Of a stretch of 64,000 nt of DNA, positions 37,034-40,154 are shown piece by piece. The first letter of the stretch is position 1. Every line of letters begins with the position of its first letter. The notes beneath the pieces were generated by a model, which was given only the letters and a program-made list of their open reading frames with translations, ran no database searches and had not been told where the DNA came from. The position numbers and the translations under genes are program-made. This stretch comes from Streptomyces cathayae (GTDB lineage Bacteria > Actinomycetota > Actinomycetes > Streptomycetales > Streptomycetaceae), in assembly GCF_029760955.1 (NCBI RefSeq), contig NZ_CP121682.1:3844001-3908000 (forward strand), in the 5' to 3' direction.

Positions 37034-37300
37034 TCAGCCCAGGCGGTCCACGGCCTCCTTGGCCTCGGCCAGGCCCGCTCCGGTGACCTCGCGGTAGGTC
37101 TTGACCGCCTGGATCCTCTTGCCCTCCCGCACGAGCGCGACGATCTCGTCCCGGCGCGGAACCTCCTCGTGCAGGTCCAGGTGCTCGAGCACCAGGTCGA
37201 GCTTGCGCTCGAGACGGGCGGCACGGCGGTCGGCCCGGGAGATCTCGAACTTGATGGTCATGATGCCGAGGAACACGATGAGGAAGGCGACTGCGTCCAT
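37034..37300 (-). CDS. Ribosomal L7/L12 C-terminal-domain-like membrane protein
   Basis: An 88-residue protein. An N-terminal hydrophobic segment (VAFLIVFLGIMTIKF, about 4-18) could insert in the membrane. A charged stretch follows, then a C-terminal L7/L12-like fold (GKRIQAVKTYREVTGAGLAEAKEAV, near 59-83, given in overlapping parts). Such small proteins are common in actinobacteria beside other genes; they are not the ribosomal stalk protein. Function unknown. It is in the same direction as the TPR regulator gene. Confidence 0.8.
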   Translation of the reverse strand: MDAVAFLIVFLGIMTIKFEISRADRRAARLERKLDLVLEHLDLHEEVPRRDEIVALVREGKRIQAVKTYREVTGAGLAEAKEAVDRLG

Positions 37301-37362: not shown

Positions 37363-38706
37363 TCAGACCGGGGGCTGGGCCGGGGCCGGCCCCAGGGTCG
37401 TGGTGCCCGGGGCCGTGCGGTGGCCGAGACCGGTGCGGTAGGCGTCCAGGGCGGCCTCGACGCGGCCGGTGCGGCGGAGCAGGTCGCCGAGGAGGCGGCA
37501 CAGGTCGGCCAGGTCACCGGCCGCACCCGCCCGCTCCAGCAGGCTCATCGCGCGGACGTAGTGCTCCTCGGCCTGCTCGGTGTCGCGCACGTCCTCGGCG
37601 ATGATGCCGAGCAGCCGGTGCGCCGCCGCCGCGTGCACCGCGCCCCGTTCGGGGGAGAGGCCGCCGAGCACGTCCCGCAGCAGGCCGGCCGCCTCCCGCG
37701 AACTCCCGCGCCGGTGCAGTACGTCGGCCAGCTCCACGGTGACCTGACTGCTGTAGAGGACGGCACGGGTGGCCGACAGCATCTCCAAAGCCCGACGCAA
37801 CTCGCCTTCCGCCAGATCGAGTTCGCCGTTCTGCGCGTACACGTACCCGCGCATCCAGTGGCAGTTGGCGAGCTCCGTACGCAGGTGCAGCCCGCGGTAC
37901 AGCTCGGCCGCCTTGGCCAGCGAGGCGTCGGCCTCGGTGATCCGGCCCTCGGCGAGCAGGGTGCGGGCGACCGACCGGTGCATGCGCGCCACCAGTGCCG
38001 GGTCGCCGGCCTGCGGGGCGAGCGCCAGTGCGAGCTCCGCCGCCTGGGCGGCACGCGCGTGTGCGCCCATGTCCATGTACGGGCCGATCGCGCTGGCGTA
38101 GAGCAGCAGCAGCGCGTCCGGGTCGTGCAGCCCGGACCGGTTCAGCTCGTCGATGGTGGACTCCAGCAGGTAGACCGCGTACCGGAGTTCGCCCGCGAGG
38201 TAGTGCGCGACGGCCCGGCCGCGCAGCGCCGGCACCCGGGCCTGCAGCGGGGCGTCGGCGAGACGTTTCTCCGCCCGTTCGAAGTACTCGCGTCCGGGCT
38301 CCAGTTCACCGGTGTCCAGTGCGCACTCGCCGAGCCCGAGCAGCGCGGCGGCCTGCTCCTCGGCGAGGTCCTGCTCCTCGGCCTCGGCGAGCAGCCCGGA
38401 GTACTGCCGCACCGCCGTCGCGGCCTCGCCGAGGGCGAGGGAGCGCTGGGCCTCGGTCAGCCGGAGCCGTAACTCGGTGACGAGTCGCGCCGAACGCCCG
38501 GTCGCCAGCTCGTCGAACGTGACTCCGAGCCGGTCGGCGAGATGCCGCAGGGCGTCGTCGGAGGGCCGCACCCGCCCGGCCTCCAGCGTGGAGACGTAAG
38601 CAGGGGTGTACACCGGCTCGGCCAGCTGTTTCTGGGTCAGCCCGCACTGCACGCGCAGCCGCTGCACCCGGCGCCCGATGGTGTCCGGATCGTCACGCTC
38701 CCCCAC
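37363..38706 (-). CDS. XRE-family HTH regulator with TPR domain (RRNPP-like architecture)
   Basis: A 447-residue regulator. Residues 8-63 are an XRE helix-turn-helix (RVQRLRVQCGLTQKQLAEPV, then YVSTLEAGRVRPSD). The remaining 380 residues are tetratricopeptide-like helical repeats (for example LGECALDTGELEPGREYFERA and ANCHWMRGYVYAQNGELDLA). HTH plus long TPR is the layout of peptide-responsive RRNPP regulators (PlcR/NprR type). GTG 38706 is chosen over TTG 38712 because AGGGGGAG lies six bases before it. A 55-residue exported-peptide gene is divergent 98 bases away, suggesting a cognate signal. Confidence 0.85.
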   Translation of the reverse strand: MGERDDPDTIGRRVQRLRVQCGLTQKQLAEPVYTPAYVSTLEAGRVRPSDDALRHLADRLGVTFDELATGRSARLVTELRLRLTEAQRSLALGEAATAVRQYSGLLAEAEEQDLAEEQAAALLGLGECALDTGELEPGREYFERAEKRLADAPLQARVPALRGRAVAHYLAGELRYAVYLLESTIDELNRSGLHDPDALLLLYASAIGPYMDMGAHARAAQAAELALALAPQAGDPALVARMHRSVARTLLAEGRITEADASLAKAAELYRGLHLRTELANCHWMRGYVYAQNGELDLAEGELRRALEMLSATRAVLYSSQVTVELADVLHRRGSSREAAGLLRDVLGGLSPERGAVHAAAAHRLLGIIAEDVRDTEQAEEHYVRAMSLLERAGAAGDLADLCRLLGDLLRRTGRVEAALDAYRTGLGHRTAPGTTTLGPAPAQPPV

Positions 38707-38753
38707 TGCCAACTCCCCCTGTGCCTATTGCTGTTCGAGACTGACACCCTCTA

Positions 38754-38783
38754 GGTTAAACGCCGGATTAAACCCGCTTAACC
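38754..38783. promoter_or_regulatory. Candidate operator in regulator/peptide intergenic region
   Basis: GGTTAA at 38754-38759 and TTAACC at 38778-38783 form inverted half-sites, with a further GATTAAAC between them. The TTAA-rich run is striking in a GC-rich intergenic region between the divergent genes. Confidence 0.4.
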
Positions 38784-38804
38784 CGTTGCTGTTGCGAGGT
38801 CGTC

Positions 38805-38972
38805 GTGCTGGAACGCATTCGCACCACCAGGCGTTACGCCAGAGGCTTCGTCGCGGCCGTCGCCGCGGTCGCCGCACTGGTCCTGGCAGCCAACGCGGGC
38901 CCGGCCAAGGACACCCACGCCGAGGACTCGGAGCAGCACACCACGGCCCCGGTGGAGGCCTCGGTCCGCTAG
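38805..38972 (+). CDS. Small exported peptide, candidate pheromone precursor
   Basis: A 55-residue protein encoded divergently from the XRE-TPR regulator. The basic N-terminus (LERIRTTRRYARG) precedes a hydrophobic helix (FVAAVAAVAALVLAA) ending in ANAGPA, so it looks like a signal-peptide precursor with a short acidic mature tail (DTHAEDSEQHTTAPVEASVR). GTG 38805 follows GCGAGG. Being too short, such genes are usually missed. It could be a pheromone precursor sensed by the neighbouring regulator, or just a small secreted protein; the first reading is inference from layout only. Confidence 0.65.
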   Translation: MLERIRTTRRYARGFVAAVAAVAALVLAANAGPAKDTHAEDSEQHTTAPVEASVR

Positions 38973-39005: not shown

Positions 39006-40154
39006 TCAGCTCTGTGTCTGCAACTGGCTGAGCTGCCGCCGTACGTGGTCCAGGGCCCCCTGCTGCCGTCCGGGCACGCGGGCACGCAACTCCGCCAGCA
39101 GCGGGCCGAGTTCACGGGCCCGTGCCGGGTCTGCGATCCGGCCCCACTGGTGGTGCGCCCGGTCCACGGCCGTCTCGACGACGGAGGCGTCCACCGCCTG
39201 GCCGGTGTTCAGCCGTGCGGCGGCCACCGTCAGCCAGGTACGGCAGCTGAGCACCGCGTCCCCGGCCAGCATCGCCAGATCGGCACGGACCTCGGCCCAG
39301 TGCAGCGCCTCCTCGGAGGCGGGCCCGTACGCGAGGACGGCACTGTGCTCGTGCCGCGCGGCGAGCGCGTCGGCGTCCGCGTGACGGCCGGACCGCACGG
39401 CCGCCGTGATGGCCGCGTGCGGGTCCCCCGGGGCGGGCCCGGAGCCGCGCCGGGCCAGTACGAGACCGGGGTGCTCGCTCTCCGCGGCGACCCGGGTCAG
39501 CGCCTGCCGGTGCAGTTCCTCGTTCGACGGGCGCCGTCCGCTGCGCAGCAGCGTCGCGACCGCCTTCATGTACGCCGGCACCGCGACCGTACGGCGGGAG
39601 GACGGCGGCGCGACACGGCCGTACAAGGCGGTGTCGCGGCCGGAGTCCAGCACGAGCGGCGCCGGGACCGGCGCCGGGGTCTGCGGGACGGGCTGCTGGC
39701 GGGGCAGCAGCCGGGGCGTCCGCGGGGAGCACAGTGCCTGCCAGCTCTCCGGGTCCGCGTACAGGTCGAGGATCAACGTCGTGGCGCCCGGCGGCCGCAG
39801 CCGCAGCTCCTCCCGGAACCAGTGCCACGGGAACGCCGTGTAGCGCGCGGTCGACGCGGTGGTGCGGGCCAGCGCAAGATGGGGCAGGCGCTGGCGGCGG
39901 TCGAGCAGCAACTGCCCGGTGACGTACACGGTGAGCGGTCCGGGAGCGGTCGCGGCGGCACGCAGCCGGGTCAGGACGGCCTGCGGCTCGAGCGGGTCGG
40001 CGAGTTCGACGACGTTCGCGGTGTCCGTGCCGGACAGCACGGCGGGCGGTACGGCCGCGAGGACGGGGAGCACCGACGCCGCGTCCACCAGCCGCCCCCG
40101 CCCCAGCGGCGAGGCCGCCAGCAGCAGCACGGTCCCGGGCGTGGTTCCTGACAC
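39006..40154 (-). CDS. Unknown protein of 382 residues, possible TPR/caspase-like regulator
   Basis: A 382-residue soluble protein. The first 150 residues look like an alpha/beta domain (VLLLAASPLGRGRLVDAASV; TVYVTGQLL; TTLILDLYADPES), and the C-terminal half is helical and Ala/Arg-rich (ALHWAEVRADLAMLAGDAVL region). The beginning may be a caspase-like fold, but no catalytic His-Cys pair is clear. GTG 40154 follows GAGGGAGGGAACC. A five-unit 12-bp repeat lies just upstream. It is encoded beside the XRE-TPR/peptide pair. No family firmly recognised. Confidence 0.65.
   Translation of the reverse strand: MSGTTPGTVLLLAASPLGRGRLVDAASVLPVLAAVPPAVLSGTDTANVVELADPLEPQAVLTRLRAAATAPGPLTVYVTGQLLLDRRQRLPHLALARTTASTARYTAFPWHWFREELRLRPPGATTLILDLYADPESWQALCSPRTPRLLPRQQPVPQTPAPVPAPLVLDSGRDTALYGRVAPPSSRRTVAVPAYMKAVATLLRSGRRPSNEELHRQALTRVAAESEHPGLVLARRGSGPAPGDPHAAITAAVRSGRHADADALAARHEHSAVLAYGPASEEALHWAEVRADLAMLAGDAVLSCRTWLTVAAARLNTGQAVDASVVETAVDRAHHQWGRIADPARARELGPLLAELRARVPGRQQGALDHVRRQLSQLQTQS

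Follow-up and report, generated by a model that had tools for sequence, protein, structure and literature searches.

Is a small peptide with an exported look, encoded back to back with a helix-turn-helix (HTH) plus tetratricopeptide repeat (TPR) regulator, the signal sensed by that regulator or the product controlled by it? The question is raised by a 64,000-nucleotide stretch of Streptomyces cathayae (contig NZ_CP121682.1, positions 3,844,001 to 3,908,000; hereafter the window), in which a gene for a 447-residue HTH-TPR protein stands divergent from a 55-codon open reading frame (ORF). A preliminary description of the window, made from the sequence alone, proposed a peptide signal and its sensor in the RRNPP layout. 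Our analysis revealed that the two genes form a real, conserved unit in many Streptomyces, as judged by comparison of genomes, and that the regulator probably controls the promoter of the micropeptide gene. The pairing of the two products as ligand and receptor is unproven and is in part contradicted.

Co-inheritance of the pair and selection on the micropeptide

Relatives were sought in an even draw of 199 Streptomyces genomes, with a threshold of E<=1e-60 for the regulator. The regulator was matched in 122 of them, at one place per genome, and a micropeptide relative was found beside it in all 73 genomes with the closest regulators (the 73 best matches, 75-100% identity, down to genome G078; upstream DNA was inspected for every one, pooled from four sets of 30, 6, 20 and 17 loci). 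One of these 73 regulators, in G078, carries an in-frame TGA, and some run off the end of a contig. A profile search with the micropeptide over the 199 genomes found it in 77, namely those 73 plus four genomes (G022, G140, G192 and G013) in which the regulator is broken or gone. In a named collection, the best 80 of 402 confirmed stretches held the pair in 80/80 loci, with the micropeptide displaced to 1.5-1.8 kb in four. Over all sources the micropeptide lies upstream in 118/118 loci holding the regulator (111 adjacent, 7 split by inserted genes); the pooled sources overlap, so these are not 118 species. Because the micropeptide hidden Markov model (HMM) was built from first-pass matches in the same loci, and the 199-genome search also uses rows from such loci, the profile is not an independent test for most of them. 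One second, weak match (E 5.9e-5, inside a 588-residue frame elsewhere in G108) was taken as chance, and the script assigned no start codon in 3 of 114 loci (L008, L009, L102). At E<=1e-40 the regulator was found in 17 of 296 genomes of the class, 16 of these belonging to the same genus. The co-conservation that the preliminary description proposed to look for was borne out (73/73 genomes; adjacency in 111/118 loci). A literature search of open PMC papers found no description of the pair in titles or abstract beginnings.

The micropeptide consists of a basic start, a hydrophobic stretch and a polar tail, and its relatives are mostly of 48-65 amino acids (range 32-109). It has no Pfam match, and the 82 database relatives are hypothetical, uncharacterized or (once) secreted where named, and from Streptomyces where the organism is given. 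The ratio of nonsynonymous to synonymous change (dN/dS) was calculated as a simple pooled pairwise count for 107 of the 120 distinct sequences, 13 being omitted for length; the hydrophobic part gave 0.28, the tail 0.96 and the residues preceding the core 0.93. Within five clades the ranges were 0.04-0.29 for the hydrophobic part, 0.24-0.98 for the whole tail and 0.13-1.88 for the first residues, and synonymous sites vary where core residues stay fixed. By its conservation and this codon-level selection the ORF is a real, translated gene, as the preliminary description had supposed.

All 122 distinct micropeptides contain a 17-residue stretch with a mean hydropathy of at least 1.8; the start is net positive in 121 and the form A.A[x]P is present in 106. 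The Asn of AANA is found in 93% of the 120 micropeptides alignable on the P, and signal peptidase alone should not require this residue. The tail is absent in five loci (L158, L159, L216, L222, L262), where a stop follows one residue past the conserved GP or VP and leaves 32-37 amino acids. A tail of unrelated sequence is found in another clade and in G022, where it is antisense to a convergent ORF by our reading and has a motif common to L096, L142, L147 and L153. Core selection, tail loss, unrelated tails and the conserved Asn together point to the core, with AANAGP at its end, as the most probable functional part, and the best reading of the micropeptide is a Sec-type peptide, judged by hydropathy, that would act via its conserved core LxxAANAGP. 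Since five loci have no tail and the tail is near neutral, the C-terminal signal (EASVR) named in the preliminary description is unlikely and that claim is probably wrong.

The control region between the genes

The divergent arrangement over AT-richer DNA first noticed in the window was confirmed by coordinates, Pfam and composition: the 98 intergenic bases (38707-38804) have a GC content of 0.551 against 0.722 for the window, and only 37 of 9129 98-base stretches of the window are lower. GGGGGAG lies on the minus strand 6 bases upstream of the GTG start of the regulator, and an alternative longer start, TTG at 38712, directly abuts it; the micropeptide also begins with GTG, with GAGG 5 bases upstream.

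The only three TTAA words of the window (38756, 38768, 38778) are all intergenic, and the inverted half-sites proposed earlier recur in relatives. Among 120 distinct loci, TTAA-N6-TTAA is exact in 96 (shuffle mean 0.045), 103 contain three TTAA words, and 104 have a promoter-like TTG...TA...T site (2.6 on average in shuffles, 9 at most). The distance from the start of the -10 box to the start of the palindrome is 16 bases in 84/84 loci having both. By these counts the half-sites are a conserved operator-like element; the predicted site covers the -10 box and the beginning of the micropeptide gene, a position that would speak for repression. In eight loci with genes inserted between the pair, the palindrome adjoins the micropeptide, not the regulator. 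These inserted genes (L036, L098, L105, L108, L110, L111, L118, L141; L111 and L141 seem to be one genome) look DUF397-like by our reading, which was made without a profile search.

We searched 14 whole genomes (11 that have the micropeptide, 3 whose regulators are sisters facing other genes; see below) for a stricter pattern, TTAAR-N4-YTTAA. It was present in 8 of the 14, at the micropeptide locus in 7 of these 8 (all micropeptide genomes) and nowhere else in 6. The genome of the window has it at two places, one of them this locus, together with two further sites with one mismatch; inspection of the other sites (one exact, two with one mismatch) gave no clear target gene.

The regulator, its natural losses and its sister loci

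Pfam assigns HTH_31 and several TPR models to the regulator, and its AlphaFold (AF2) model, from a 32-row alignment (mean predicted local distance difference test score, pLDDT, 87), consists of the HTH followed by nine helix pairs. Fold searches returned NprR, Rap and PlcR among other proteins, but numerous eukaryotic TPR proteins, including LGN and APC subunits, score as high or higher, so the fold comparison does not discriminate RRNPP; a sequence search of the PDB matched PlcR via the HTH only. Residues 431-446, at the C-terminal end of the model, have a pLDDT under 50. The regulator end TAPGTTTLGPAPAQPP (window 37366-37416) is predicted to be disordered yet is nearly invariant, largely so in sister regulators too, and is perhaps an internal ligand mimic.

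Regulators were compared over 81 close (micropeptide-linked) and 13 sister sequences, with L169 omitted. Inner-helix residues common to both sets include R156, R161, R163, H167, Y202, H242, R243, R247, H282, W283, R285, Q320, E324, H362, R363, R403 and others. The micropeptide branch has 12 characteristic positions, of which four lie in inner helices. Within that branch, most of the changes that distinguish clades are N-terminal to residue 155, and the TPR core is nearly invariant. Taken together, the residues common to sisters and the position of the clade changes suggest that the ligand is probably common to micropeptide-linked and sister regulators, rather than a clade-specific tail. A TPR groove tuned to this peptide, as the preliminary description implied, is not supported by the inner-helix residues, which recur in 13 sister regulators from genomes without a micropeptide match. 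Inner-helix Asn residues hold the peptide backbone in RRNPP receptors; in the present sequence comparison the only Asn of the inner helices is N280, with His in its place in most sister rows.

The four genomes with the micropeptide and a broken or missing regulator are natural experiments; G022, G140 and G192 are single genomes, and the losses in them may be recent. In G022 the recognisable remnant of the regulator is its last 22 codons only, and in G140 residues 125-312 are missing or replaced; both have an intact micropeptide gene and promoter-like region. In G192 (L261) the regulator has no HTH and a TPR-only frame is open beside the micropeptide; the palindrome is gone, while the promoter-like site and the micropeptide are kept. 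This TPR part keeps 179 of 195 otherwise invariant residues, and with 16 changed, against 1-11 in three intact relatives, it may be relaxing. In G013 the flanking genes are present but no regulator was found, and the frame of the micropeptide is retained while the sequence that usually precedes it is not.

The other 49 regulator matches are about 60-75% identical or are fragments. Two of these (G140, G192) belong to the micropeptide set, and the profile search found no micropeptide in the remaining 47 of the 122 regulator genomes. Upstream DNA was examined in 20 of the 47, where the regulator faces an exported M64-peptidase-like gene in 11, an alpha/beta hydrolase gene, prolyl-aminopeptidase-like by our reading, in 7 and other genes in 2. 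Of the resulting 18/20 loci with peptidase-like labels, 9 are Pfam-confirmed (M64 in 5, Abhydrolase_1/S33 in 4) and the other 9 labels rest on start sequences. Five of the 20, all before an M64-like gene, carry a promoter-like site and the exact palindrome with the same 16-base spacing. The partner gene has been exchanged in some sister loci, where a similar layout goes with a peptidase instead of a micropeptide. In 14 wider stretches around sister regulators the neighbouring genes of the window were not found, save for one 34% match. Among eight micropeptide genomes searched, an M64 relative was found in one. A prolyl-aminopeptidase-like gene was found elsewhere in 8/8 micropeptide genomes, and in 0/8 is there a TTAA within 300 bases upstream of the match. 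In another family outside the genus, a 40% identical regulator (L203, in G361) is divergent from a gene that looks, by our reading, like a secreted lytic polysaccharide monooxygenase.

The coordinates of the features are given in Table 1. The genes beyond the pair had been suggested as its outputs, namely the 382-residue gene and the SpoIIE/PP2C gene. These are convergent or lie beyond, and the gene following the micropeptide is of many kinds across species (a crude ORF picker, which made a call for 69 loci, placed it convergent in 54 and on the same strand in 15); the neighbours as outputs were rejected, and the suggestion is probably wrong. The 382-residue convergent gene (39006-40154, minus strand) weakly matches the EACC1-associated caspase profile, scoring 28.6 bits (E 9e-7) where the cut-off is 140. 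Of 78 longer loci, 72 have in their stored flank a 272-residue lipoprotein-like gene that is also a neighbour in the window, and an 88-residue protein (37034-37300, minus strand) has a segment like the C-terminal part of ribosomal L7/L12 (26.9 bits, barely above the Pfam cut-off of 25.9).

Table 1. Features of the divergent pair, in window coordinates
Feature	Position	Strand	Basis
HTH+TPR regulator gene (447 amino acids; stop at 37363, GTG start at 38706)	37363..38706	-	Pfam HTH_31 and TPR models; AF2 model; relatives in 122/199 genus genomes at E<=1e-60
55-amino-acid micropeptide gene	38805..38972	+	relative in 77/199 genus genomes; dN/dS of 0.04-0.29 over the hydrophobic part (five clades)
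Hydrophobic core with terminal motif LxxAANAGP (codons 14-33)	38844..38903	+	hydropathy in 122/122 distinct relatives; A.A[x]P in 106/122
Codons 34-55, variable, apparently dispensable tail	38904..38969	+	dN/dS 0.96 (107 sequences); absent in five loci
Operator-like palindrome TTAAACCCGCTTAA (TTAA-N6-TTAA)	38768..38781		exact in 96/120 distinct loci
Third TTAA half-site, overlapping the -10-like box	38756..38759		three TTAA words in 103/120 distinct loci
Promoter-like TTGCTG-N18-TAGGTT of the micropeptide	38728..38757	+	similar site in 104/120 loci
Ribosome-binding-like GAGG of the micropeptide	38796..38799	+	similar gaggt precedes relatives

Known systems, competing readings and significance

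In Rgg3-SHP of streptococci, a gene for a short hydrophobic peptide (SHP) lies beside a regulator thought to repress it. The present locus likewise has a short hydrophobic peptide gene adjoining a presumed repressor; it differs in the longer peptide, the signal-peptidase-like site, the optional tail and the mostly convergent next gene. NsdA-family TPR regulators (NCBIfam NF053720) give a weak profile match (E 1e-4), but with 22 bits against a cut-off of 75 the window regulator falls outside that family. The XRE-DUF397 pairs of Streptomyces (Scr1-Scr2, PMC6262351) likewise join an XRE-type regulator to a small neighbouring gene, which encodes a DUF397 protein; in the present loci, genes read as DUF397-like occur only as insertions between the pair.

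For RRNPP systems, PMC4873490 describes a mature peptide of under 10 residues that is re-imported and bound by TPRs, and PMC10075063, whose tool was applied by its authors to Firmicutes and viruses, gives five computational criteria: a propeptide of 10-100 amino acids, a receptor of about 250-500, TPRs, direct adjacency and Sec export by SignalP. Four of the five have counterparts here (a 55-residue propeptide, a 447-residue receptor, TPRs, and adjacency over 98 bases and in 111/118 loci). For the fifth, hydropathy (122/122), a net positive start (121/122) and A.A[x]P (106/122) would be consistent with Sec export. By our own test, whether a receptor family is tied to its peptide gene in relatives, 47 of 122 regulator genomes gave no micropeptide match, and this and the dispensable tail speak against RRNPP membership. 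Compared with PlcR-PapR and NprR-NprX, which have a propeptide gene, the locus is similar in placing an HTH-TPR protein of 250-500 residues beside a small ORF with a signal-like N-terminus and in its fold matches to NprR, Rap and PlcR. It is different in the tail, in the sister regulators that face peptidases in genomes with no micropeptide match, and in inner helices with R/H/Y/Q/E residues and one Asn.

The most likely reading, to which we give about even odds, is that the HTH-TPR protein is a one-component repressor that acts locally and has the micropeptide as its main direct target. The regulator would bind the three TTAA half-sites, about one helical turn apart, of which the first covers the -10 box and the other two (TTAA-N6-TTAA) closely follow the expected start of micropeptide transcription. 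It would so keep the gene off, until a small ligand bound by the conserved inner-helix residues of the TPRs releases it. The micropeptide would then insert in the membrane via its signal-like core, N-in and C-out, with a possible signal peptidase cut at AANA|GP, and would work through this core, not through the tail. Several observations weigh against this reading. Four of the 11 micropeptide genomes searched lack the stricter pattern; the exact palindrome is absent from 24 of the 120 distinct loci and from 15 of the 20 sister loci. Over whole genomes, a reversed control pattern occurs at least as often as the stricter one, so the number of sites is no above-chance evidence and their location is the evidence. 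A single TTAA remains near the regulator in split loci. The micropeptide persists in G022 and G140, neither of which has a working regulator; this is neutral with respect to repression. In addition, the dN/dS values come from a simple pooled count, three of the five clades show no constraint on the residues ahead of the core, and two show it on the final five residues of the tail (0.14 and 0.35).

These last residues are the ground for regarding the tail (e.g. PVEASVR) as a clade-specific pheromone, since the constrained clades are V, that of the window, and D, and endings such as PVEAAVR and VADSR are typical of clades. The ratios of 1.79, 1.02 and 1.00 in clades Q, H and C, the five tailless loci, the L004 tail (antisense to a convergent ORF, with the motif common to the four loci listed above), and a TPR core that stays nearly invariant despite differing tails, with clade-specific changes mostly outside it, make such a pheromone highly improbable; segment dN/dS, tailless forms and unrelated tails led us to disfavour it. 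A signal from the core is less easily set aside. As in short hydrophobic peptides or signal-peptide-derived pheromones, a conserved core goes here with a conserved groove, and a fragment around LxxAANA or AANAGP might be released by signal peptidase and a membrane protease, re-enter the cell, bind the TPR groove and switch the regulator. We hold this RRNPP-like alternative of the short-hydrophobic-peptide kind to be possible, and on the doubtful side. Two further readings involve the peptidases faced by sister regulators. The HTH-TPR family may sense proline-containing peptides, sisters switching peptidases (the prolyl-aminopeptidase-like hydrolase and M64) and the AANAGP core being here the ligand or its source, possibly in competition with the disordered, nearly invariant C-terminal segment TTTLGPAPAQPP of the regulator as an internal mimic; we consider this unlikely. 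The micropeptide might also be the functionless leftover signal peptide of a lost exported M64-type peptidase still faced by sister regulators (11 of 20 loci, Pfam-confirmed in 5), an M64 relative being found in 1 of 8 micropeptide genomes searched; but purifying selection on the core across 107 distinct sequences, its specific conserved motif and a similarity to M64 starts that is weak at best (HMM E 0.08 or worse) make this very unlikely. Its size, single hydrophobic stretch and local control region would also suit a toxin-like small membrane peptide silenced by the divergent repressor, and we find this hardly credible, given that G022 and G140, with a deleted or interrupted regulator, have the gene and its promoter-like region intact.

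According to PMC10075063, signals in Actinomycetota are typically small molecules made by enzymes. An intracellular peptide receptor in this phylum, if true, would be new, and the proline-peptide reading, if true, would mean an actinobacterial peptide circuit with its signal from the signal-peptide core, not the tail. With a single regulator and a single divergent micropeptide the locus is a clean system, for which nature supplies deletions, splits, forms without a tail and exchanged partners; such variants make it possible to test what a gene encoding hardly more than a signal peptide does.
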